Of a stretch of DNA of 42,312 nt, positions 8,665-29,926 are shown piece after piece. The DNA is taken from positions 1 through 42,312 of the IMG/VR virus record IMGVR_UViG_3300030616_000046; one strand, 5' to 3'. The position numbers were made by a program, and so were the translations under genes. The stretch's first letter is position 1; every line of letters begins with the position of its first letter. The stretch comes from a virus. The notes below the pieces were generated by a model. The model was not told the origin of the DNA. It did no database searches and saw only the letters and a program-made list of their open reading frames with translations.

Positions 8665-10245
8665 TCATCTCGCGTAGGGCGACCGGGCGGTATAGATTCG
8701 GCGCCCGCGTGCGGTGGACCCGCCACGCGCCCGCACGACCGCAAGCCACATCGCCATAACCATGTCGAAGGTCGCGGCCGGGTAGTACCTCAGTTCCCGG
8801 AGCCACGTACATTGACCGCAGTCGCAGTCCGGCAGGCTCGTGCCGTCGTGCCCGCCGCGTGTGCCGATGACCCATGTGCGTGCTTCGAACGACGGCTGGA
8901 CGGATGGTACGCCGTACTGAAGGTCGCGCTTGTTGCTCGTGGTGGTGAACCCCTCCACGGGCAGTGCCGTGTGCTTCTCCTGTAGGTACTGCACTAGCGC
9001 GTCCTGATAGGCGTTGTTTTCCACTGTGTGCATGATGGGCATCGGGTGGAGGTTCCGGTGAAGGTCCACTACATAGGCGGCCTGAGCGCGGAACGGAATC
9101 TTGTCGCGGTGGACGTGGACCGGCGCCCAGCGCCCGTCGCCGGAGATACCGAGAGCGAACGCGGCGAAGAAGCTCGCGCTGTCCAGCATTGACATCGCGA
9201 GGTCGTACCCGCAGTAGATACGCCGCACGTTGAACGGCGCTTCTCCGGGCGCTATCGTCGGATCGAAGCACGCCTCGATGTCCTTCCACCGGAAGTCGCC
9301 GCCGGAGTCCGACAGCGGCCAGTTGTTGAATGCGCGGTTGAATGCGACCTCGCCGATCTCGCCAAGCCGCTTCTCGAGTGCCGCGACCGACCACTTCGTC
9401 TCCCACACCGAGACGATGGGCGACATGGGCGTTTCCTGAACGCGGAACGTGATCCAGCGCCAGCCCGGCATGGTCTGGAGCACCGCGTTCGCGTCCAGCT
9501 CGTGCCACGCGGTTCCGATGTTGACGGTCCTGCACCACGGTTCCGCGATCTGCATGACGTCCTCGCGGAACGCAGTCAGCACCTTCTCCCGCTTGGCGGG
9601 CGAGAGCAGGCTGTTCTCCATGTCGCAGATGTCGTCGAGGCACAGCATGTCCGCGCGGCCGCTCGTGAGCGTGGAGAAGATACCGCGCCCTTCCAGCGAC
9701 GGGTCGCGCTCGTTGATCGGGATACCGCCCTCTTCTGGATAGTCGATGTATAGCGCGTGCTTGGTCCATTCGCCCTGTTGATGGTCCGGTTCCTTCAGGT
9801 CCGGGAACACCGCCTGCAGACGCTTGTTGAGCAGCATGTCCCGCCGTATCTGCTGCACCGTCCGGGACGCCATGAGGTCGACGTTCGCGAGAATCTTCAC
9901 GCGGAGCGGCCGCCGCCACGCGAGGTCCGGGATCGTTGAGCGCCCGAGCTCCCACGTCATGCGCCCACGTGCGATCCGAGTCGTCTTTCCGTGGTCGCGC
10001 GGCGCTTGTATGCCAGCCGAAAGCTCGTCGGCCCACGACGTGTCGATATGGTCGTCCCACTTCAGATGCATGGGGCATTCGTCGATCTCCCACCCGTACA
10101 CGAACTTCCCGAAGTGTCGATACGACCGTCTAGCCGCCTCAACGTCAATGGACCCTATCGGAATCCTGATCTCGTTCGCCTGCAGGCCCGGCCTCGGAGC
10201 CTTCGACTGCGATGATGACGTATTCTGCGTCGTCCGCTTCGGCAT
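8665..10245 (-). CDS. terL: Terminase large subunit
   Basis: A 526-residue packaging motor. The ATPase half has a deviant Walker A APRDHGKT (81-88), Walker B LCLDD (201-205) and coupling motif GTAW (244-247). The RNase H-like nuclease half has GYDLA (Asp348), HTVENN (Glu409) and ATFDMV (Asp494), the acidic triad. A four-Cys cluster CDCGQC at 474-479 is an unusual addition near the nuclease end. ATG at 10245 is chosen because GAGG precedes it and the gene then overlaps the small subunit by 101 bases, suggesting translational coupling. It cuts concatemers and drives DNA into the portal encoded next. Confidence 0.92.
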   Translation of the reverse strand: MPKRTTQNTSSSQSKAPRPGLQANEIRIPIGSIDVEAARRSYRHFGKFVYGWEIDECPMHLKWDDHIDTSWADELSAGIQAPRDHGKTTRIARGRMTWELGRSTIPDLAWRRPLRVKILANVDLMASRTVQQIRRDMLLNKRLQAVFPDLKEPDHQQGEWTKHALYIDYPEEGGIPINERDPSLEGRGIFSTLTSGRADMLCLDDICDMENSLLSPAKREKVLTAFREDVMQIAEPWCRTVNIGTAWHELDANAVLQTMPGWRWITFRVQETPMSPIVSVWETKWSVAALEKRLGEIGEVAFNRAFNNWPLSDSGGDFRWKDIEACFDPTIAPGEAPFNVRRIYCGYDLAMSMLDSASFFAAFALGISGDGRWAPVHVHRDKIPFRAQAAYVVDLHRNLHPMPIMHTVENNAYQDALVQYLQEKHTALPVEGFTTTSNKRDLQYGVPSVQPSFEARTWVIGTRGGHDGTSLPDCDCGQCTWLRELRYYPAATFDMVMAMWLAVVRARGGSTARGRRIYTARSPYAR

Positions 10246-10651
10246 GTGCCGCCTCATAGAGCTTGAGAACGTCGTCCTTCGGCATCTGCTCCAGTCCGGT
10301 CGCAACACGGTGTTCGATCGCTATGGGCTGGTACAGTCCACGGAGCTTGCACTTCTCGCGGAGTGCGCTGATCGCAGCGTTGATCCACCCCTTCCGCGCC
10401 GCGTCGAGGTACAGGGTCTCCAGACGCTGCAACGTCAACCGCCGCTCCTTCTCGGATTCCTCGGGCTCGTAAGTCTCGATCTCATCTTTCGCTCGACGGA
10501 TCAGCCCGTCAGCGGAGCGCGTGCTGAGCCCCCATTCCCTCGCAGCAAGTTGCAGGATAGCGGGACGGCCAGCACCCTTGAGCAGTAGCCGTTTCACCAC
10601 ATCCACGCGGCGAGCGTATTCGACTTTCGTGACTCGCCCGGCGTTAGACAT
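10145..10651 (-). CDS. terS: Terminase small subunit
   Basis: A 168-residue protein. The N-terminus is a helix-turn-helix segment (PAILQLAAREWGLSTRSADGLIRRAK), followed by a helical oligomerisation stretch and an acidic, Ala/Glu-rich C-terminus, the layout of TerS proteins that recognise the packaging site. It directly precedes and overlaps the large subunit. Its ATG overlaps the end of the TAGT-like glycosyltransferase gene by eight bases, so the modification cassette and packaging genes form one translational unit. Confidence 0.82.
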   Translation of the reverse strand: MSNAGRVTKVEYARRVDVVKRLLLKGAGRPAILQLAAREWGLSTRSADGLIRRAKDEIETYEPEESEKERRLTLQRLETLYLDAARKGWINAAISALREKCKLRGLYQPIAIEHRVATGLEQMPKDDVLKLYEAAHAEADDAEYVIIAVEGSEAGPAGERDQDSDRVH

Positions 10652-11480
10652 CCGCTGCCCCCACCCGCGCAGGCCAACCCGGAGGCTCAGGCTGGTCGGC
10701 CCACGTGCGCCTGATCACCGGGCCAGTCCGCTTGTCCTTCAGGAGTATCTCGGCGCGTTTCTTCCTTGCACGGTTACGGACGCAGAGCATCGGGAACTCA
10801 CGCAGGAGTTCGCGCACGGCCGTCTCGATACGCTCCTGAGTCCGGTCTTCCTGCATCCCGCCCGGCTCGGTATAGTACGCGGTCTTCACGGCGAGGTAGT
10901 TGAGCCGCACCACACCGCCGTCGCGGAGATAGTGACGCAGGGACCGCTCGTAGTCCTCCTTCTCGTCCCTCGACACATAGGTGCGGGGATCGTGTGTGTT
11001 GACGATGCCCCACAAGGCCCCGACGATGTAGCGGAGCTCGTGTGTCACGGTCGGCTTCATGAAGTACGGATTGACGGTCGGGTATATCCCCCATAGTTTG
11101 AGCCCGGCCGCCTCCGTCAACGCGAACCCCTCTTCGATGACGTGTCGCAAGCACGCGCCAGCCGACACGACCCGCTTGTTGTCGAGGCGATACAGCACGT
11201 CGCGCACGTCGTCGTCCATCGAGAATACGAGCGCCTTTTCCGGGTACCACTCCCGGATGAACCGCCGCGCCCCGCACAGCGTCGGCAGCCCGACGACCAC
11301 CCGGCCCGCCCACCTTGCCGCTAGCGACTCCCGGTAGCAGTCTGCTTCCTCGTGCGAGGCCACGAATATTGTCACGCGCTCCGGCGGGATGCTACTCCGC
11401 TCCAGAAGTGCCAGCGTGCGCCGCCGGATTGTCTTCGGCCGCTTGTAACTGGGAATCGCGATGTGCCACCCGAGACTCAC
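10644..11480 (-). CDS. TET-associated-type glycosyltransferase (TAGT-like)
   Basis: A 278-residue GT-A glycosyltransferase. GTG at 11480 has GGAGG seven bases upstream and follows the radical SAM stop by one base. Features seen: HIAIPSYKRPKT at 6-17, FVASHEEADCY at 39-49, a DDD metal-binding motif at 89-91 (FSMDDDVRD), EKEDYERSL at 173-181 where the catalytic acid/base is expected, and GGMQEDR plus a C-terminal basic segment. This order matches the TET-associated glycosyltransferase family of phages, which is thought to add sugars to oxidised pyrimidines in DNA. No TET/JBP oxygenase gene is present here, so the acceptor is open: a base modified by another route, or a protein. Confidence 0.7.
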   Translation of the reverse strand: MSLGWHIAIPSYKRPKTIRRRTLALLERSSIPPERVTIFVASHEEADCYRESLAARWAGRVVVGLPTLCGARRFIREWYPEKALVFSMDDDVRDVLYRLDNKRVVSAGACLRHVIEEGFALTEAAGLKLWGIYPTVNPYFMKPTVTHELRYIVGALWGIVNTHDPRTYVSRDEKEDYERSLRHYLRDGGVVRLNYLAVKTAYYTEPGGMQEDRTQERIETAVRELLREFPMLCVRNRARKKRAEILLKDKRTGPVIRRTWADQPEPPGWPARVGAADV

Positions 11481-11481
11481 G

Positions 11482-12411
11482 TCAGACCCTCCGGGGATGC
11501 TGTGGAGACCGTTGACAGACCCTCGCCAGATCCTGCTCAGACGCTGGGCCCATGTGCGGGAGCAAACCCGGTCTCGTCCCCGACCCCACATCGCAATAGC
11601 GGCACGGCGCGAAGGCTCGGTGCTTCCCGCGTAGCAGGCGCCGTGCCGCCACGAACGTCGGCCCGCGCCAGATCGCCGCCAAGTCCTGCTCTGCCGCGTT
11701 TCCGCAGTAGCACTCGAGCCGCCAATCATCGCAGCAGATACCTACCTTGCCGTCCCAGCGAATCGCAAGCTCCCGGAACGGCCGGGTGCAGACCGCCGCG
11801 AGCGGCTCGTCGACCGGCGGGATGCACCCGCTGTTGCCGCCCTGATTGGTCACCCGCCGCTGTGCCGCCTTGCGCGGCGGCGCCATGATGTCGTCGATCA
11901 AGATGACTGCCTTCGTCCCCGGAGAGTGCCGACGCCACGGGATTGCCCCGTCCGCATACAGGTCGAGCACCGCCCACCCCGCAGGGTTGGCCTCGATTTC
12001 CCGCCTCAACCCATCGCCGTACGGCTTGTAGAGGTCCACGGCCAGCACATTGATCCTTCCGCTCAGGTCTCGGGCCCACGCAGCCCACCTGTCGATCAGC
12101 TCGAGCCCGTTCGTAATCACTGTGAGCGATGTCTGCGGTAGCGCAGCCCTGAACTCCGTGAGGACCGGCAGTACCTTCGGGTGTAGGAGCGGTTCGCCGT
12201 GCATCGCGAACTCCACACGCGGGCGGCCGCCCCACTGCCGTGCGATCATCCGGGCGATTCGCCGCGCGAGAGCCGGCTCCATGTAGTTGTACTCGTCAGG
12301 AGCCAGACCCAACACGCCGATGCCGCACATTTGGCAGCGCCTTTGACACCCTTCGACGAGCTCGACCTGCACAGACCACGGCCTGTCAGGCTGCGTACCG
12401 ATAGACGACAT
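11482..12411 (-). CDS. Radical SAM enzyme with SPASM-like C-terminal domain
   Basis: A 309-residue enzyme. The 4Fe-4S motif is CQRRCQMCG (Cys22, 26, 29), with HGEPLLHP (71-78) and TVITNG (97-102) as further radical SAM core signatures. The C-terminal part has SPASM-type cysteines: Cys208 with PFRELAIRWDGKVGICC, Cys234/236 and PCRYC at 269-273, which could hold auxiliary clusters. SPASM enzymes usually modify peptides, but some act on other substrates. ATG at 12411 has GAGG six bases upstream. The gene overlaps the preceding radical SAM gene by 26 bases and abuts the glycosyltransferase, so the three are probably expressed together. Substrate unknown. Confidence 0.8.
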   Translation of the reverse strand: MSSIGTQPDRPWSVQVELVEGCQRRCQMCGIGVLGLAPDEYNYMEPALARRIARMIARQWGGRPRVEFAMHGEPLLHPKVLPVLTEFRAALPQTSLTVITNGLELIDRWAAWARDLSGRINVLAVDLYKPYGDGLRREIEANPAGWAVLDLYADGAIPWRRHSPGTKAVILIDDIMAPPRKAAQRRVTNQGGNSGCIPPVDEPLAAVCTRPFRELAIRWDGKVGICCDDWRLECYCGNAAEQDLAAIWRGPTFVAARRLLRGKHRAFAPCRYCDVGSGTRPGLLPHMGPASEQDLARVCQRSPQHPRRV

Positions 12412-13675
12412 GGCCATCCTCGTCGCGCCCGTTTGCGACCAGCCCGCCCCCGAAGTACGTGCCCGGAGACTTGCCGCGCTCGGGGTGATCCCACATGTAG
12501 AGAACGTAGTCTAGGTGGCTCCTCCCGTACCACAGCGCACGCGCCCGCTGCGACCCGCTCACGCCGCCGTTTGTTTCCGCCGGACTGCCCCCCGGTCCAC
12601 CGACTCTCGGAAGCCGTCCGTAGAACGCCTCCGCACCCGCCGCGATGTCGCGCCAGCGCACCGATCCCTGTCGACGTGCGAGGACGGCAGCCGCCGTGAA
12701 CTGCCCGTCCTGATACTTCCAATGTTCCGGGATTCCGCAGCAACATCCGTGATGTGAGCGCTCCTTGAAGTGCGCGTCGGAGACATAGAACCGCAGCCCG
12801 TGATCCGCGCACGCCTTTTCGGCTTCGTCTGTGTCGCGCCTCTTCGCTTCGCGGTTGAGCCGCAGATACCCGGCGCCCATCGAACACCGACGGTACACCT
12901 GCAGTAGCCGAGGCGACGCCATATGTAGCCGCTCGAACCGCACTCTATTCTTGCGCCCGGCTCGCTGGTCCACGCACAGGAACTCCATCGACACCGACTG
13001 CGCCCCAGCGTTCGCGGCGTCCCTGATCAACCCCGCGATCCCGTCGCCCTTCTCCGTCACGCCCGGAACGACTGGCCGTAGCCGCAGCGTCGTACTCACC
13101 CCTGCCGCCGCTACCGCTTCCATCGCCGCGAACCGTTCTTGCGGCGTCGGCACGCCGCGCTCGATGAGCCCGGCAGCGGTTACGTCGCTCGTGATGATGC
13201 TGAACTTCACATGCCACAGGTCGCGGTGCCTCCGGAACCGCTCCATGTACCGCTCGTCCTTCGTCCACCATGCGCCCTTGGTGCTAAACGAGCAGCGCTG
13301 CCCTCGCGCCGCGAAGGCGTCCATGAGGTCAAGGGTAATCGGATCGGCCTTCTCCAAGCTGTCGAACGGGTCGCCCAGCCCGCCGCATTGGACCGCCCGG
13401 CCAGACTCCGCGAACGCCTTGAACGCGGGGCTCTCTTCGTACGCACGCATCGCGCGGGCGACGTCCATCCGTTTGCCGACACGCACCCGCCCCGACTGCC
13501 GCATGTAGTGGGAGAAGCAATAGGCGCAATCGTATCCGCAGCTGTCTCGCGTATCGAAGACCACGGGCAACCCGCAGTCTAAGTACTCTCCGCTGATGCG
13601 CGGCTGAGCGTAGACCTCAGCGTGTGAGGCCGAGCTCGCTGACGAGCGCCGCCCCGTCGATGATCGCTGCTGCAT
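12386..13675 (-). CDS. Second radical SAM protein, spore-photoproduct-lyase-like
   Basis: A protein of about 429 residues with CGYDCAYCF (Cys46, 50, 53) and, downstream, CGGLGDPFDSLEK, which parallels the 'DP.D..E' motif of spore photoproduct lyase and Rv2578c-type radical SAM proteins. The barrel strands KFSIITSD and STTLRLRPVVPG follow in order. Its C-terminal half has a HHGCCCG cysteine cluster that may bind a second cluster or zinc. It differs from its neighbour in motif spacing and lacks SPASM. ATG at 13675, with GGGGACG upstream, overlaps the ParB-like gene by 59 bases; no better start exists before the cluster motif. Action on a nucleic acid is inferred from the SPL resemblance. Confidence 0.72.
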   Translation of the reverse strand: MQQRSSTGRRSSASSASHAEVYAQPRISGEYLDCGLPVVFDTRDSCGYDCAYCFSHYMRQSGRVRVGKRMDVARAMRAYEESPAFKAFAESGRAVQCGGLGDPFDSLEKADPITLDLMDAFAARGQRCSFSTKGAWWTKDERYMERFRRHRDLWHVKFSIITSDVTAAGLIERGVPTPQERFAAMEAVAAAGVSTTLRLRPVVPGVTEKGDGIAGLIRDAANAGAQSVSMEFLCVDQRAGRKNRVRFERLHMASPRLLQVYRRCSMGAGYLRLNREAKRRDTDEAEKACADHGLRFYVSDAHFKERSHHGCCCGIPEHWKYQDGQFTAAAVLARRQGSVRWRDIAAGAEAFYGRLPRVGGPGGSPAETNGGVSGSQRARALWYGRSHLDYVLYMWDHPERGKSPGTYFGGGLVANGRDEDGHVVYRYAA

Positions 13676-14219
13676 TCGCGTCCCCGTTGAAGTGCTCCAC
13701 CAGAAGGTCCCGCTGCCCCTCGTCCGCGCACTGCACGTACACGATGACCGCAGGCTGACTTTCGCCGCCCGCGCCACTCACCGGTTCCTCGTGGCCTTCG
13801 GCGCCTGTTGCGCCGCCCGTGATCGCGTCGAGCTCCCATTCCTCGAACCCGAGATGCTCTCGGTCCTCGAGTCGGTCGACCTCGTCGGCCAGCAACGCGT
13901 AGTCCCATTCGCCGACAACCGCGTTCAACACGATGCCCAGCCGCCGTTCCTGCTCGTCGTCGAGCCTGACCACGACGACCTCTACCTCGTGCGCACCGAG
14001 CGCCCGCAAGACCGTCAGGCGCTGATGCCCGCCGACGACCCTTCCGGTCTGCTCATTCCAGACGATGGGCTCGACGTACCCGTTGTCTTCGATGCTCTGC
14101 TTCAGATCGTCGTACGCCCGCATCCCGGGCGCGAGCTTCACGCGGGGATTCTCTTCGCGCTCCACTAGGCGGTCTATCTCGATGACACGTGTTTCGAGCT
14201 TCCACGTTTCGCTATTCAT
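13617..14219 (-). CDS. ParB-like N-terminal domain protein
   Basis: A 200-residue protein. Residues 10-110 carry the ParB/Srx fold signatures: 'IDRLVEREENPR', 'DDLKQSIEDNGYVEPIVWN' and VVGGHQRL (63-68). The GGHQR motif binds and hydrolyses nucleotide in ParB-type proteins. The rest is acidic and ends with a helical segment, without a DNA-binding HTH of the chromosomal ParB kind. Stand-alone ParB/Srx domains are frequent in phage DNA modification clusters and near terminases. It is the first gene of the cassette leading to the radical SAM enzymes. ATG at 14219 follows GGAGG at a slightly long spacing. Confidence 0.8.
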   Translation of the reverse strand: MNSETWKLETRVIEIDRLVEREENPRVKLAPGMRAYDDLKQSIEDNGYVEPIVWNEQTGRVVGGHQRLTVLRALGAHEVEVVVVRLDDEQERRLGIVLNAVVGEWDYALLADEVDRLEDREHLGFEEWELDAITGGATGAEGHEEPVSGAGGESQPAVIVYVQCADEGQRDLLVEHFNGDANAAAIIDGAALVSELGLTR

Positions 14220-14236
14220 CGCGCCCCGTTCCTCCT

Positions 14237-14749
14237 TCACTCCGGATCACCGATGGCGTGGAGCCAGTACCAGACGCCCGTGCTGTCGTTCGCAACCGCC
14301 TTCACCCACATCGTGTCGAACGCCGTCGGAATGTAGCCGGTGTCCGTGCCGCCGGTACCAGACGACTTCGCGAGGTTCTTCCACTGCGCGAACAGCTTGA
14401 TCGTCGGCAGCGTGTCGCCGTCTGCGGTCGCCGAACGGCGTATGAGCAGATAGGGCGCCTTGTGCCCGGTCGGGAGTACTACCGCCGAGTCATACGACCA
14501 GCACAGCCCGCGCCACGCGTGCATGTACTTGAGCCCCTCGGGGACGATCTTGTACCACGAGAGCGTGTCCGGGTCCGCGCCGGTGCACGTGTCCGGTACC
14601 TCCGCACAGGCCCACCATTCACCGTTCGCAACGGCGCTCGGCGACCGATACACCGCGTGCTCCGGCGGTGCCGCGAGCGCACCGACGAGACTCAACCCGG
14701 CCCAGAACAGCACCGCCACAACGACGGCGACCTTCTGCCTCGTACTCAT
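14237..14749 (-). CDS. Secreted or membrane-anchored protein, unknown
   Basis: A 170-residue protein whose ATG is preceded by GGGAGG. After MSTRQK comes a hydrophobic segment (VAVVVAVLFWAGLSLVGALA) ending in a possible signal peptidase site ALAAPP. The mature part is rich in Trp, Tyr, Gly and Thr, with three or more cysteines (ACAEVPDTC, LCWSY). No family is recognised. It follows the next listed beta-rich anchored protein, and the two look like a pair of envelope-directed or tail-fibre-like proteins located between the glycosyltransferase and ParB blocks. Confidence 0.6.
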   Translation of the reverse strand: MSTRQKVAVVVAVLFWAGLSLVGALAAPPEHAVYRSPSAVANGEWWACAEVPDTCTGADPDTLSWYKIVPEGLKYMHAWRGLCWSYDSAVVLPTGHKAPYLLIRRSATADGDTLPTIKLFAQWKNLAKSSGTGGTDTGYIPTAFDTMWVKAVANDSTGVWYWLHAIGDPE

Positions 14750-15597: not shown

Positions 15598-16752
15598 TTA
15601 CTTCGCTGTGAAGCCCGCCGCGAAAGCCCTCCGGTGGTTCTCGATCGCGCCCGCGTACGCGTCGACGTACCGTTCGCGCATCGCCGCGCTCGAGAACGGT
15701 TCGAGGTTCTTGTGGAGCTCAGACCAGCCCGGATTCTCATCGAAGGCTCTCTCGTAGGCGAAAGCCAGTTCCTTCGGGTTGCTCGGGTCCTTGACCGTGA
15801 CGCAGTTCCGACCGGGTACGAGCGGATTCGCGATCCCGCCTGCCGCTCTCTCGGCGCGTGCGAAATCCGCTCGTACAACCGGCATCACCCCGTGGTCCCA
15901 CGCTTCCAGAACCGTGTACTCGGTCCGGCCCGTATCACGTGGCCCGAACGTGGTCAGGTTCGACAGCACGCCTGCGGGTCCGAACACCTTCTCGACGTCT
16001 TCCGGCCATTCCCACGCGCCGCACGCGAGCCACGACGTAGGATCGGCCATCGTACTATAGGCGATGATGTCTGCGAGGTAGCCCGCCTTCTGGCCGGTCC
16101 AGAACAGCACCGGGCGATGTTCGCTCCGCAGGTGGTCGGCCGCCGCGATCGCCTGTCCGATGCCCTTGTGCGGCCGCCAGACCGACGTGCAGATCACCTT
16201 GTCCTGCACTCGGCCCGGCCCGAACGGTGCCTCCGTGTGGAGCGGCACGTACGGATGCCCGCCGAACACCGCCTTCCGTTCCCAATCTGTCAAGTAGCCG
16301 CAGGCGCCCACGTGCGCCATGAACCGCTCTCCGATGAACACCACACGATGCGCACGCTCACACAACGCGATCAGATACGGCGCGTGGCAGTCCATCTCGT
16401 GCGGGTCATGCACGGACAGTACCAGCGGCAGCGGAGGCGTGTCAAGGACAAACCGTTTATACGGGCCGGTAGGTAACGTGCCGAGGTGGACGATGTGCAG
16501 CACGTCGACCTCGCCCGTCATTTCCGCGTAGCTGAGGAAGTCCTTGCCGCGTTCCAGCATCCCATCTTGGCGCGTGCTGAGGTCCACGTCCTGCCTGATG
16601 AACAGGACCCCTTCTCCGTCCGGCGTACCCGCAGGGCGCCACACCGTGACCTCGTGCGCCGGGTCCTGCTCAAGCAACCGTTGCAGGTGCCGCAGATACG
16701 TCGTCGTGCCCTCCGCGTGTCCCACGCCCGGTCCGGCCAAGCCGATCCTCAC
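15598..16752 (-). CDS. GT4-like (GT-B fold) glycosyltransferase
   Basis: A 384-residue enzyme with the N-terminal GT-B opening VRIGLAGPGVGHAEG (Gly-rich, as in family 4), a 'LSVHDPHEMDC' mid segment and the family-4 C-terminal donor-binding pattern: CTSVWRPHKGIGQAI, LACGAWEW and EYTVLEAWDHGVMPVV, where Glu of the EAW segment corresponds to the E-x7-E region. GTG at 16752 overlaps the stop of the GT2 gene by four bases (GTGA), so the pair is co-translated. It would transfer a sugar from a nucleotide-sugar donor in the cytoplasm. The acceptor (host glycan, virion protein or DNA-linked sugar) is unknown. Confidence 0.82.
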   Translation of the reverse strand: MRIGLAGPGVGHAEGTTTYLRHLQRLLEQDPAHEVTVWRPAGTPDGEGVLFIRQDVDLSTRQDGMLERGKDFLSYAEMTGEVDVLHIVHLGTLPTGPYKRFVLDTPPLPLVLSVHDPHEMDCHAPYLIALCERAHRVVFIGERFMAHVGACGYLTDWERKAVFGGHPYVPLHTEAPFGPGRVQDKVICTSVWRPHKGIGQAIAAADHLRSEHRPVLFWTGQKAGYLADIIAYSTMADPTSWLACGAWEWPEDVEKVFGPAGVLSNLTTFGPRDTGRTEYTVLEAWDHGVMPVVRADFARAERAAGGIANPLVPGRNCVTVKDPSNPKELAFAYERAFDENPGWSELHKNLEPFSSAAMRERYVDAYAGAIENHRRAFAAGFTAK

Positions 16753-17636
16753 GTGACGCCCTCCTTCCGATGCCGAGCCCAAAACCGCGCCCGGTCCTGT
16801 TCTGATCCCAACACCCACCTGTTCGTCGGTTCGCTGCGGTCACCTGTCGTCCAGCCCTCGTAATGGTACGAGCACTCCCATTGAGCCACCAGACACGGGC
16901 GTTGCGTCTTCTCAACCGCCCGGCGGCACAGGTCGATGTCCTGCGCGTCCACGACGTACCCCTCATCGAACCCGCCCAACGCCGTGAACGTCGCGTCGGT
17001 GATCGCCAGCAAGGCGCCCGTCACCGCCCACACTTCGCGGAACCGCTCCGCTCTGTACGGCTCGGCCCACGCACGCGCACCGCGCCCCGTGTGCAACCCC
17101 ACCCCGAAACGCCACGGCTCCACGCCCACGTGTTGTATCCGATCAGCGTACTGCGGCCCCCTCTCCGGCGGGTAGACCAGCTTGGCACCGCACACGCAGC
17201 CCCCGACTTGTATCAACCCCTCGTGCAACTCGCCGAACTGTCCCGCAGCGACCTCCACGTCGTCATTCAGGAACACGAGCACCGTCTGACCGTCGGGCCT
17301 CAGACCGCCGTATTCCCGCGCGAGCGCGACGCCGTGATTGTTCATCACGCTGTAGTTCCACTCGAACCCGGCGCCCCGCGACGTCATCACGGCCACACCC
17401 GCTCTCCGCACGGGTGACACCGCGAGCGCCATGTCCCGTTTGTCTATCGGCTGACTCGATACCACGACCAACAGCCGGAAGAGCCCCGCCGACGCCGCAA
17501 GCGCCTCGCAGCACGACCGGAGCATCAACGGATCGTCGCTGAGTATGACGGGACAGAAGGTCCGTGAGCTGTCACGCACGGTCGCACCGTCCCGGCCGAA
17601 TGCGAGCCACGTTTTCGACCCCACATTAGTTGACAC
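16749..17636 (-). CDS. GT2-like (GT-A fold) glycosyltransferase
   Basis: A 295-residue enzyme. It shows WNYSVMNNHGVALA and VLVFLNDDVEV, the latter carrying the metal-binding acidic pair in the usual place for rhamnosyl/glucosyl-type family 2 enzymes, then VTGALLAITDATFTALGGFDEGYVVDAQDIDLCRRA, which is the typical acceptor/catalytic region of the O-antigen type GT2 group. It overlaps the following GT4 gene by four bases and the preceding small gene by eleven. Start GTG at 17636 has a G-rich ribosome site; a second GTG lies three codons later. The donor sugar is not predictable. Confidence 0.85.
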   Translation of the reverse strand: MSTNVGSKTWLAFGRDGATVRDSSRTFCPVILSDDPLMLRSCCEALAASAGLFRLLVVVSSQPIDKRDMALAVSPVRRAGVAVMTSRGAGFEWNYSVMNNHGVALAREYGGLRPDGQTVLVFLNDDVEVAAGQFGELHEGLIQVGGCVCGAKLVYPPERGPQYADRIQHVGVEPWRFGVGLHTGRGARAWAEPYRAERFREVWAVTGALLAITDATFTALGGFDEGYVVDAQDIDLCRRAVEKTQRPCLVAQWECSYHYEGWTTGDRSEPTNRWVLGSEQDRARFWARHRKEGVT

Positions 17637-18000
17637 TTCGACGCCCCCCGTTCTGTAGCGTCCGCTGCGGTGCGTCACCTTCTTCTTCGCGCACGATGCG
17701 CAGACTCGCGAGGACCGAGACGAACACGCCGAACAGCGTCCCGATGTCTGCGTCGGTCACAAGGCCCGCTTGGACGCGCTGTTGGAGTCGCCCGTACACC
17801 TTCGCCTTCTCGAGGTCACCTTCCGGGTACGGGCGCATGTCCACCGTCCCGTTCAGCATGTCTGCGATCAAGTGGGTCGCCAGCGTCACCGTCTCCATCA
17901 CGTCGGCCCCGAATACCTCTGCCACTACCGCACGGGACCGTACCGCCGCCTCCCGCTGCGCTTCCGTCTCTTGTGCTTCGTCCTTCTTCGAGCCGGTCAC
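17626..18000 (-). CDS. Small helical protein, unknown
   Basis: A 124-residue protein beginning with GTG that overlaps the preceding stop as GTGA. It is helical, with an Ala/Glu/Arg-rich N-terminal half and 'IGTLFGVFVSVLASLRIVREEEG' near the end, a moderately hydrophobic helix. No known motif. It lies between a winged-helix protein and the GT2 enzyme in an overlapping gene string, so it is probably real and co-expressed with them. Confidence 0.65.
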   Translation of the reverse strand: MTGSKKDEAQETEAQREAAVRSRAVVAEVFGADVMETVTLATHLIADMLNGTVDMRPYPEGDLEKAKVYGRLQQRVQAGLVTDADIGTLFGVFVSVLASLRIVREEEGDAPQRTLQNGGRRSVN

Positions 18001-28480: not shown

Positions 28481-28773
28481 TCTGACCCCTCCATTTCATC
28501 GTGCCCGCAGAATAGGCACTCGTCGAAGCCTTGCAGGAACGCCATCGCCTCGCGGGCGCGTAGCGGCCCACCGATGAGCCTGTGAGCGCCGACGGCACGC
28601 ATGGGATGTAGGTGCGCGTTCGGGTCCGCGCTGGCATAGTATATGCGATAGACACGCGGCCTCGGGGCTCGCGACGGACCCTGATCAACGATGATACGGT
28701 CGCCGTCGTCGAGCTTCTCGCTGATCAACTGCGCCCACCGTCGCAACTGCTTGTCTGTCACTCGGATTCTCAT
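28477..28773 (-). CDS. Small protein with CxxC tail
   Basis: A 98-residue protein MRIRVTDKQLRRWAQLISEKLDDGDRI..., ending with ECLFCGHDEMEGSE. One CxxC pair. Overlaps both neighbours by four bases, so it belongs to the same transcript as the ArdC-like gene. Unknown role. Confidence 0.6.
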   Translation of the reverse strand: MRIRVTDKQLRRWAQLISEKLDDGDRIIVDQGPSRAPRPRVYRIYYASADPNAHLHPMRAVGAHRLIGGPLRAREAMAFLQGFDECLFCGHDEMEGSE

Positions 28774-29672
28774 TCGTCTGCTCCTTTCTCGACCCGTACC
28801 ATGTCACCGATCTTCAGCCTGTGCGGCTCGCCGCGTGCCTCGTCGATCACCGCCGACACGGCATCTGCGATTGTGACTGCGGCCTTGAGGATGCGAGCGC
28901 CTTCAGCCTTGATGTAATCCACGTCTGCGTGCCACGACCCGAGGTACTCACCGCCGCCCTCAACGGTCATGCCGAGCATACGGCAGGCCACCATCGCCGT
29001 CGCCTCTGCCTCGGTCTCGCGCTGACCCCGCGTCGTGGTCTCGTGCCGGTTGCTGTGGTCGAGTACGTTGTGAGCGCACTCGTGGACCAGCGCGTGAATC
29101 GCTACCGGTCGGTCCTGCGCGTTGTAGACCTTGCCGTTCTTGCCGTTCGTGTGGCCGCCTACCGTGTTCACGCGGTCGTCGGTGACGATGTCGTGGACCT
29201 CGGCGGCGTACTGCTCAGTCGCGGCCCACAGCACGTTCATGTCGGCGGCGTACGCCCGGAGCGGTATGTCCAGCTTGAACTCCGCGCCGTCCGTCTGGCT
29301 CACGTCGAAGGTCTTTCCGGTTGTGAACCCGCGTAGCCACTCGACCACCTTGTCCTCGCCGTCATCTTCAATGACGCGCCGTCCCTTGATCGGCACGAAC
29401 ACCATCAATCCGTGCTCGCCCTTCTTGACGTGTCGCCCGAGCGTCTTCCACGCCTTGTAGCTCGCGCAGAGCGTAGCGTCCGGGCGCTGTGCGAGGATCA
29501 AGAGGGTGTTGCACAGCGAGTAGTTGTGGAACCCGCTCTGCCACCGGGCCGCCCATTCGGTCAGGCGGCCGGGGTCCGTGACGATCTCACCGGCGACGTC
29601 TTCGAGGTATCGCGCCGCACGCTCTCGCCACGCCTTACGCTCTTCGAGTGTGTATTCGTTCTTCCGTGGCAT
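28770..29672 (-). CDS. ArdC-like antirestriction protein with zinc peptidase domain
   Basis: A 300-residue protein. Residues 35-100 show the ArdC N-terminal ssDNA-binding domain: 'ARWQSGFHNYSLCNTLLIL', 'ATLCASYKAWKTLGR', 'VKKGEHGLMVFVP'. Residues 190-232 hold a zincin domain, HECAH (197-201) with HNVLDHSNRH and the third ligand in TEAEATAMVA. ArdC-type proteins shield incoming DNA from restriction and occur on plasmids and phages. The early location suits protection right after injection. ATG at 29672 has AAGGAGG. Confidence 0.85.
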   Translation of the reverse strand: MPRKNEYTLEERKAWRERAARYLEDVAGEIVTDPGRLTEWAARWQSGFHNYSLCNTLLILAQRPDATLCASYKAWKTLGRHVKKGEHGLMVFVPIKGRRVIEDDGEDKVVEWLRGFTTGKTFDVSQTDGAEFKLDIPLRAYAADMNVLWAATEQYAAEVHDIVTDDRVNTVGGHTNGKNGKVYNAQDRPVAIHALVHECAHNVLDHSNRHETTTRGQRETEAEATAMVACRMLGMTVEGGGEYLGSWHADVDYIKAEGARILKAAVTIADAVSAVIDEARGEPHRLKIGDMVRVEKGADE

Positions 29673-29692
29673 CGGGGCCTCCTTCGATAGTG

Positions 29693-29926
29693 CTACACTC
29701 CGCGCTCCATGTTGAAATCGGCGATCCAGTCCTCCCAACACCGCTCACATAGGACAACCGCGCCAGAGGGACTGCCCGGAACGCCGACCACGTAGAACCG
29801 CTCTCCGTCGACGAACTCAGCGCCGCAGTCGTCGCACGACACATCATCGTCGGGGTGGTACCGTACGACCCGCACCGTGGAGCGCGGATCGTTCTCTTGG
29901 TCCAGTGCGACCTCGTAGCAGGACAT
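29693..29926 (-). CDS. Zinc ribbon protein, paralogue 1
   Basis: A 77-residue protein MSCYEVALDQENDP..., with SCDDCGAEF and LCERCWEDW (two CxxC pairs). It is about half identical to the next-door gene over its length, and the DNA around the start, including the ribosome site, differs by one base in some 33. The pair is a recent tandem duplication with diverging bodies. Function unknown. Confidence 0.7.
   Translation of the reverse strand: MSCYEVALDQENDPRSTVRVVRYHPDDDVSCDDCGAEFVDGERFYVVGVPGSPSGAVVLCERCWEDWIADFNMERGV

Follow-up and report, generated by a model that had tools for sequence, protein, structure and literature searches.

Phages M6, ViI and phi W-14 hypermodify thymidine by the 5-hmdU kinase route (PMC6449724). 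Their 5-hmdU comes from a thymidylate synthase (TS)-family enzyme at the nucleotide level, and the thymine-derived base is elaborated on DNA. In phage T6, a TAGT enzyme (beta-glucosyl-HMC-alpha-glucosyltransferase) adds to glucosylated 5-hmC (PMC13390438). TET/JBP-TAGT cassettes have a different layout and are found in Mycobacterium phage Acadian and in Arthrobacter phages Altadena and Klevey. The gene order is ParB-TET-TAGT-PIG-L in Altadena and ParB-TET-TAGT-PIG-L-TerS-TerL in Acadian (gp1 to gp6), where the cassette lies directly before both terminase genes. Sugar tailoring in these cassettes falls to PIG-L, a deacetylase, and bases are altered by a 2-oxoglutarate/Fe(II) oxygenase; TET/JBP chemistry requires oxygen. 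To our knowledge, there is no known route to post-replicative hydroxymethyl-type bases in phages that infect anaerobes, such as those of the gut and rumen. The annotation of Acadian gp2 as a queuine tRNA-ribosyltransferase, which would suggest deazaguanine chemistry, was rejected, as Pfam gives TET/JBP (E 1.4e-4, below the family cut-off).

Here we describe a cassette in an IMG/VR virus record of 42,312 bases (the window, meaning the whole stretch analysed). Its four genes, which abut terS and terL, encode a ParB-like protein, a radical SAM enzyme resembling spore photoproduct lyase (SPL), a second radical SAM enzyme of the BtrN-like SPASM type and a glycosyltransferase of the TAGT family. The order ParB, base enzyme, TAGT is that of Altadena and Acadian, but the window has SPL instead of the oxygenase and the SPASM enzyme instead of PIG-L.

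Results

All cassette genes lie on the minus strand. The ParB-like gene (13617..14240, 207 aa) encodes a ParB_N domain plus a short C-terminal region and stops at 13617, close to the SPL ATG at 13675. SPL (12386..13675, up to 429 aa) stops at 12386, near the SPASM ATG at 12411 or 12417. The SPASM gene (11482..12417, 311 aa) stops at 11482 and meets the GTG start of TAGT at 11480 (10644..11480, 278 aa), whose stop at 10644 lies next to the TerS ATG at 10651. The small terminase subunit gene (10145..10651, minus strand), assigned by position and size since family matches were only weak, directly precedes the gene for TerL (8665..10308, minus strand; phrog_38, 5e-43). Thus, every junction of the four-gene series that had been predicted to run into the terminase genes was found. 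Codon position 3 carries a strong G+C bias, which backs coding, and all four genes are confirmed as real. The true start of SPL may lie downstream of 13675.

The original prediction held that the genome as a whole lacks the usual entry enzymes of hypermodification. When all 42,312 bases of the record were searched in six frames, there was no match to TET/JBP (PF12851), thymidylate synthase or the 5-hmdU kinase (HMUDK, PF18723), and neither an amino acid:DNA transferase (ADDT) nor a P-loop kinase was found in the window. For cytosine methyltransferase the statement stands for the approximately 30 larger ORFs scanned with Pfam, none of which encoded one, and the wording "whole genome" holds only in so far as this record, of unknown completeness, covers the genome. 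By gene content, the window therefore fits neither TET/JBP-initiated hypermodification nor the route through a 5-hmdUMP synthase and 5-hmdU kinase, as the defining genes were not found in the record.

TAGT belongs to PF20691 (5.3e-10; 40 bits against a cut-off of 27.5), with residues 6-208 aligned to profile positions 2-205 and a DDD motif at residues 89-91. It also matches phrog_25200 (6e-39) and phrog_842 (4e-11), the latter being beta-glucosyl-HMC-alpha-glucosyltransferase, and we propose that it is a putative DNA base glycosyltransferase. The T6 enzyme shares PF20691; its acceptor is glucosylated 5-hmC, whereas that of the window TAGT is probably a thymine derivative. A GT4-type glycosyltransferase gene (15598..16818, minus strand; PF13579, 0.0015) matched the GT4 profile of an L005-type SPL-GT4-SPASM-TAGT cassette at 1.6e-9. 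It is possibly an extra sugar transferase of the same pathway, its membership being uncertain since GT4 is a large superfamily.

The ParB-like protein scores 25.2 bits against PF02195 (1.7e-5), 1 bit under the cut-off of 26.3, and its matches to phrog_620 (4e-36) and phrog_498 (7e-35) include support for ParB_N membership from the former. ParB lies beside TET in 60 of 79 TET loci, and beside SPL in SPL loci of the terminase type. It probably binds DNA as a partner of the enzyme that modifies the base. One locus (L028) had raised the suspicion of a ParB-SPL fusion, but a search for such fusions found none.

SPL is a radical SAM protein by Pfam (PF04055, 5.5e-7; 30.3 bits, cut-off 29.5) and by its CxxxCxxC cluster motif, in which C46, C50 and C53 are conserved in 73-74 of 75 sequences. 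Altogether, six cysteines (C34, C46, C50, C53, C312 and C313) are invariant or nearly so in these 75 sequences. The original guess that this gene is SPL-like was borne out by its structure model (pLDDT 90), for which spore photoproduct lyase was the closest solved fold (Z 20.2; next fold 16.8). Spore photoproduct lyase is a radical SAM enzyme working on thymine in DNA. The modelled likeness is one of fold only: identity is 14-15%, no spore photoproduct lyase chain was found by sequence up to E 1 (profiles A1 and A4), and the part of SPL past residue 300, including the CC motif at 312-313, lies outside the matched region. The reaction of SPL is expected to differ. SPL also shows profile similarity to gp53 of phage M6 (hhalign E 1.5e-9), a homology too remote for orthology. 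M6 gp53, the one relative for which a role has been described, is reported to be an isomerase that acts once 5-hmdU exists; given this protein, resemblance to SPL in fold does not by itself tell which pathway step is catalysed.

The second radical SAM enzyme (PF13186, 5.7e-13, plus Radical_SAM) combines a radical SAM core with one auxiliary-cluster domain. Its C210, C228, C272 and C275 are invariant in 15 of 15 sequences and form the C-x17-C...C-x2-C pattern of a BtrN-like "twitch" enzyme. By sequence profile it matched BtrN at 8.6e-24, and its best fold match was also BtrN (3.9e-9), followed by SpeY. Both are twitch dehydrogenases of aminoglycoside-type substrates and have the same auxiliary-cluster cysteine spacing, although identity is only about 17-19% and the model is low-confidence in stretches (pLDDT 75). 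By analogy, this enzyme is probably a putative sugar/alcohol dehydrogenase oxidising the attached sugar. The earlier suggestion that both radical SAM enzymes could supply alternative base chemistry seems right for SPL, which appears to fill the TET slot, but not for the SPASM enzyme, which does not look like a second base modifier.

The cassette set recurs widely, including in distant viruses, so that the refuting outcome named beforehand, a neighbourhood confined to this record, did not occur. The arrangements include ParB..SPL-TAGT-SPASM (L001, L002 and L004), ParB-TAGT-SPASM-SPL with a related TerL (L036) and SPL-TAGT-TAGT-SPASM (L061), and in two operons (L022 and L032) an M6-like ADDT, a PALP-fold enzyme and a radical SAM gene stand beside SPL. 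The cassette is more than a chance assembly, since its relatives, with identities of about 35-40%, keep company in virus lineages that are independent of one another. As single-protein queries, the window TAGT had no relatives in viral contigs and the window SPL none in viral or genome contigs, but alignment-based searches did find SPL relatives. In the phages collection, neither SPL nor SPASM had a relative.

SPL and TET occupy a common slot, and each is combined with one or the other of two partner sets, which are the same for both. Viral contig L160 reads ParB-TET-SPASM-TAGT, the order of the window with TET in place of SPL; L118 reads ParB-TET-GT4-TAGT-SPASM; and between ParB1-TET and TAGT-SPASM a ParB2-SPL pair is absent in L003 and present in L001 and L004. 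Among 73 SPL loci, 28 carry TAGT, 24 the kinase/ADDT set (P-loop kinase plus ADDT), none both, and 21 no recognised partner. A TET-ascertained sample of 79 loci, serving as an independent control, gave TAGT alone in 39, kinase/ADDT alone in 32 and both in one; the loci of either kind are not phylogenetically independent. At least 12 partner switches were counted on the SPL tree, and sister SPLs 71-73% identical have swapped partners (L081 versus L092/L093; L084 versus L024). A further candidate pair (L082/L083) was dropped since the TAGT of L083 is only a fragment.

The hosts of SPL prophages include Bacteroides, Prevotella, Selenomonas, Methanobrevibacter, Clostridia and others, mostly anaerobes, a tally made without a formal null; one of these prophages, the kinase-type locus L099, is that of Selenomonas ruminantium S137. 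Named phages carrying this TET infect aerobes. Of the 73 SPL loci, 6 have a SAM synthetase gene at a distance of 6 kb or less, these few cases being partly related by descent, and of the 79 TET loci none does. We lean, by a modest margin, towards regarding these enzymes as a previously unrecognised family, mostly in phages and prophages of anaerobes, that would be the O2-independent counterpart of TET/JBP: a radical derived from SAM would open the thymine methyl in DNA, leaving a hydroxyl handle that would receive a sugar from TAGT or, in the kinase/ADDT type, a phosphate and then an amino acid. No description of SPL-like genes was found in full-text literature searches, the scope of which left out Iyer et al. 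2013 and Lee et al. 2022.

Discussion

Very probably, the genes described here attach sugars to the virus's own DNA bases. The reading that we prefer, with a probability of roughly 0.65, is a post-replicative hypermodification pathway in which SPL stands in for TET/JBP without needing oxygen. Using SAM and no O2, SPL would activate thymine in DNA at its 5-methyl group to give a hydroxyl handle, most simply 5-hydroxymethyluracil, with the ParB-like protein bringing SPL to the DNA or holding it there. TAGT would then add a sugar to the thymine-derived hydroxyl, and the SPASM enzyme would oxidise or otherwise tailor that sugar, taking the place of the PIG-L deacetylase of some aerobic-host cassettes. 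The modified DNA would likely serve as protection against host restriction and nucleases. All of these findings fit the original proposal that radical SAM chemistry may replace the usual entry enzymes and so open a new way of making a modified base, probably a glycosylated one.

DNA might be hypermodified without hydroxylation by SPL, which could instead attach a carbon group or a sulphur group at the methyl of thymine, or could, like M6 gp53, tailor a base that is already modified. We consider this unlikely, though less so than the other rival readings. The remote similarity to M6 gp53 is consistent with it, as are C34, C312 and C313, which could be ligands of an auxiliary cluster like those that serve in sulphur insertion or electron transfer. 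SPL also coexists with TET in L025 and in the lineage of L001, and given this coexistence the two may act on different bases or make different products. However, SPL and the M6-type radical SAM enzyme are separate genes, side by side in the same L022 and L032 operons, and therefore their roles differ; another entry enzyme is missing from most SPL loci; and the partners of SPL, kinases and glycosyltransferases that both require a hydroxyl acceptor, swap freely.

It is improbable that SPL performs an accessory step while entry depends on an enzyme of the host or on one encoded beyond the record. How complete the viral records are, that of the window and those of most relatives, is not established, which leaves room for such an enzyme, but modification genes are clustered wherever they have been seen. 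Moreover, among the 39 SPL-bearing virus records other than the window, HMUDK was found in none, TS in three (two of the matches with an in-frame stop) and TET in three.

Glycosylation of a protein, peptide or surface, or radical SAM peptide maturation, with ParB as a coincidental packaging gene, is very doubtful. SPASM proteins often act in peptide maturation, and the GT4 gene and a GT2-like ORF upstream adjoin tail-fibre-like genes. The SPASM family here is nevertheless BtrN-like and its neighbours are nucleotide-modification genes: where SPL is missing, relatives lie next to TET or, in 6 of 10 records, next to genes for a TS-family enzyme and the kinase of 5-hmdU DNA, and TAGT genes also adjoin members of the family. 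Because the SPASM family shares loci with these enzymes, nucleotide modification is strongly supported as the predicted role of the cassette. Reversal of thymine photoproducts by SPL is the least credible reading, for although spore photoproduct lyase is the closest fold, the low identity, prophage hosts that include the non-spore-forming Bacteroidota and Methanobrevibacter, and the coupling to TAGT or kinase/ADDT all speak against DNA repair.

If SPL is indeed an oxygen-free DNA-editing enzyme that hydroxylates a base by radical chemistry, it would represent an unrecognised way to open a base for modification, and radical SAM enzymes would start, not only finish, DNA base hypermodification. 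This would answer how bases are hydroxylated in phages of anaerobes, and would account for the resistance to restriction of those that infect Bacteroides, Prevotella and Selenomonas. The vague label "radical SAM protein near terminase" also gives way to a testable prediction, namely that SPL phages contain 5-hmU derivatives.

The cassette neighbours the terminase genes in the window as in the TET system of Acadian. It is this adjacency that prompts the speculative idea that modification may be tied to packaging. In clamp-type phages, a match too weak to count as evidence (hhalign E 3e-4, probability 39%) links a 137-aa gene upstream of SPL to the ParB C-terminus.

Gene content and class of the cassette

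The four cassette genes named in the original prediction are present on the minus strand as it described, in the order ParB-SPL-SPASM-TAGT-TerS-TerL, where SPL is a spore-photoproduct-lyase-like radical SAM enzyme, SPASM a BtrN-like radical SAM/SPASM enzyme and TAGT a glycosyltransferase. In Pfam and PHROGs, the ParB gene matched PF02195 (1.7e-5) and phrog_620 (4e-36), the SPL-like gene Radical_SAM (5.5e-7), the third gene SPASM (5.7e-13) plus Radical_SAM, and the TAGT gene PF20691 (5.3e-10) and phrog_842 (beta-glucosyl-HMC-alpha-glucosyltransferase, 4e-11). TerL belongs to phrog_38 (5e-43), and the portal is Mu-like. A six-frame search of the whole IMG/VR virus record returned no TET/JBP, thymidylate synthase (TS) or 5-hmdU DNA kinase (HMUDK), bearing out the predicted absence of TET/JBP and modified thymidylate synthase; nor did a P-loop kinase or M6 gp51-, gp52- or gp55-like genes give any profile match in the window. 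The claimed lack of a cytosine methyltransferase holds for the window ORFs scanned, and its scope is limited to those. As the defining genes of TET/JBP and TS/HMUDK systems are absent from the record, both assignments were rejected and the cassette belongs to neither. The set ranks among the phage DNA modification cassettes that carry TAGT, and DNA base modification of some kind is very probable; ParB may serve as a recruiter, and a tie to packaging is conceivable. Since no cytosine methyltransferase was found among the ORFs scanned, thymine is left as the methyl-bearing base, and judging from gene content it would be the target; kinases and ADDT (amino acid:DNA transferase), the partners of SPL relatives, are members of thymidine pathways.

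Elsewhere on the minus strand, an ArdC-like anti-restriction gene (28770-29741; PF08401, 4.5e-10; phrog_7245, 1e-14) is a probable second counter-defence gene, and an ORF at 16749-17678 resembles GT-A glycosyltransferases by an NDD motif seen by eye, with no Pfam or PHROG match.

Recurrence in other viruses

The window SPASM protein retrieved 18 viral loci, and the SPL alignment 60 more plus 25 in bacterial or archaeal genomes. The proposed neighbourhood search thus found relatives of the cassette in other viruses, such as L001, L002 and L004 (ParB-TET-ParB-SPL-TAGT-SPASM-cupin) and L036 and L037 (ParB-TAGT-SPASM-SPL followed by a window-like TerL, the ParB end being cut off in L037). Locus L003 has the L001 order minus the second ParB and SPL; L005-type viruses carry SPL-GT4-SPASM-TAGT, and L009 carries ParB-TAGT-SPASM-TET. 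The other SPASM loci (L008, L010, L012-L017) have a TS-family gene nearby, mostly also a YfbR-like nucleotidase, with HMUDK in six (PF18723, 9e-56 in L008) and TAGT in most.

Several further features were observed at these loci. A conserved gene of ~137 aa, which weakly resembles ParB proteins in their C-terminal region, immediately precedes SPL in L005 (5034-5489) and has relatives in ~30 loci; the phages concerned are larger ones that also carry PolA and a clamp-like gene. Close to SPL, four loci (L045, L056, L077 at 10378-11997, and L027) encode another large radical SAM protein, judged by eye to be a cobalamin-binding one. In L067 (7982-9007), the gene between ParB and SPL probably encodes a DNA methyltransferase of the N4/N6 type, to judge from an SPPY motif seen by eye. 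The L038 and L049 records have 4 and 7 in-frame TGA codons within TAGT reading frames, suggesting that these phages may decode TGA as an amino acid.

SPL as a probable stand-in for TET

We compared entry enzymes in 50 virus records. Ten had SPASM without SPL, with HMUDK in six and TS in seven; the SPL alignment search of these ten was empty, although the same alignment does detect SPL in other viral contigs. Apart from the window, the remaining 39 all had SPL; HMUDK was absent from every one of them, while TS was hit in three (twice with an in-frame stop) and TET in three. Phage Acadian carries ParB-TET-TAGT-PIG-L-TerS-TerL and phage Altadena ParB-TET-TAGT-PIG-L, their TET matches (1.4e-4 and 0.0027) being under the Pfam cut-off and the Altadena match agreeing with the depositors' label. 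Two further loci read ParB-TET-SPASM-TAGT (L160) and ParB-TET-GT4-TAGT-SPASM (L118). The window cassette would work like these TET cassettes with its entry enzyme exchanged, and we put the probability that SPL is a functional stand-in for TET at roughly 70%. Mycobacterium phage Acadian gp2 (L106, 813-1691), between ParB and TAGT, is annotated as queuine tRNA-ribosyltransferase (also phrog_6059), yet matches TET/JBP.

As a control, TET loci were gathered independently and 79 of >500 kept. ParB was nearby in 60; TAGT alone occurred in 39, kinase and/or ADDT alone in 32, and both in 1. SPL was near TET in only three, all of the L001 lineage, where the two enzymes may serve two target bases. In another locus (L025), ParB-SPL faces a convergent ParB-TET-x-ADDT-kinase operon. 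The 73 SPL loci comprised 28 with TAGT, 24 with kinase and/or ADDT, none with both and 21 with neither (naive hypergeometric 3e-7 for exclusivity); with one representative per group at 60% identity (n=38), 18 had TAGT, 7 kinase/ADDT and 0 both (Fisher 0.009). TET and SPL thus both occur with either partner set. ADDT was called by Pfam in L021, L022, L025 and L089, and the L088 kinase is P-loop nucleotide kinase 3 (above the Pfam cut-off). Partner state changed at least 12 times across the tree of 75 SPL proteins; clear swaps include ParB-ParB-kinase-SPL (L081) versus ParB-TAGT-SPL (L092/L093), with SPL 73% identical over 418 residues, and ParB-kinase-ADDT-SPL (L084) versus ParB-TAGT-SPL (L024), 71% over 407. 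Kinases and glycosyltransferases alike require a hydroxyl acceptor. As SPL swaps one partner type for the other, its product would rather likely bear a hydroxyl. The route described for M6, ViI and phi W-14 starts by phosphorylating the 5-hmdU of the DNA, which is elaborated afterwards (PMC6449724).

Oxygen and SAM supply

Going by titles (our own classification, with no null), 19 of the 23 SPL-bearing assemblies among genome contigs belong to gut/rumen metagenomes or to lineages of obligate anaerobes; the remainder are a hot-spring Bacteroidetes/Chlorobi, a Patescibacteria, a Guaymas gammaproteobacterium and an unspecified Firmicutes. Named phages with the same TET type infect Pelagibacter, Nonlabens, Synechococcus, Caulobacter, Stenotrophomonas and Methylophilales, and no SPL relative occurred among 50,697 phage records. 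TET enzymes require O2, whereas radical SAM enzymes do not. S-adenosylmethionine synthetase (PF00438) lay within 6 kb of SPL in 6/73 loci and of TET in 0/79 (Fisher 0.011, uncorrected for kinship). Phage-type synthetases immediately follow SPL in L024 (10334-11197), L092 (5049-5843), L093 (9339-10142) and L087 (2411-3208), as if supplying a SAM-hungry enzyme.

The two radical SAM enzymes

The nearest solved structures to the SPL model (pLDDT 90) are spore photoproduct lyases (Z ~20 versus 16.8 for the next fold; identity 14-15%), in keeping with the label first given to it. SPL as a spore photoproduct lyase proper was rejected, since this fold likeness is accompanied by no match at the sequence level. 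Phage M6 gp53, a radical SAM isomerase acting after 5-hmdU formation, is a remote relative, but L022 and L032 each encode SPL plus a gp53-type enzyme; these are thus two distinct enzymes, and SPL as the M6 isomerase was also rejected. Apart from those of the radical SAM motif, two cysteines (C312 and C313) are invariant across 75 SPL sequences and a third, C34, is present in 73 (2 gaps); the three are possibly second-cluster ligands or catalytic thiols.

M6-like operons adjoin SPL in L022 (3254-10296) and L032 (4077-9659), with a PALP-fold enzyme, a radical SAM isomerase-like gene, ADDT and a P-loop kinase. Unlike phage M6, they have no TS-like or HMUDK genes, making them, on gene content, candidates for aminoethyl-type thymidines formed without a hydroxymethylase.

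The SPASM enzyme resembles BtrN both in sequence (8.6e-24) and, in a middling predicted structure (pLDDT 75), in fold, where SpeY ranks next; both are radical SAM dehydrogenases. TAGT or GT4 is almost always near SPASM in the SPASM-collected loci, whereas many TAGT loci have no SPASM, the pattern expected for a sugar-tailoring enzyme; that it oxidises the sugar is about an even chance.
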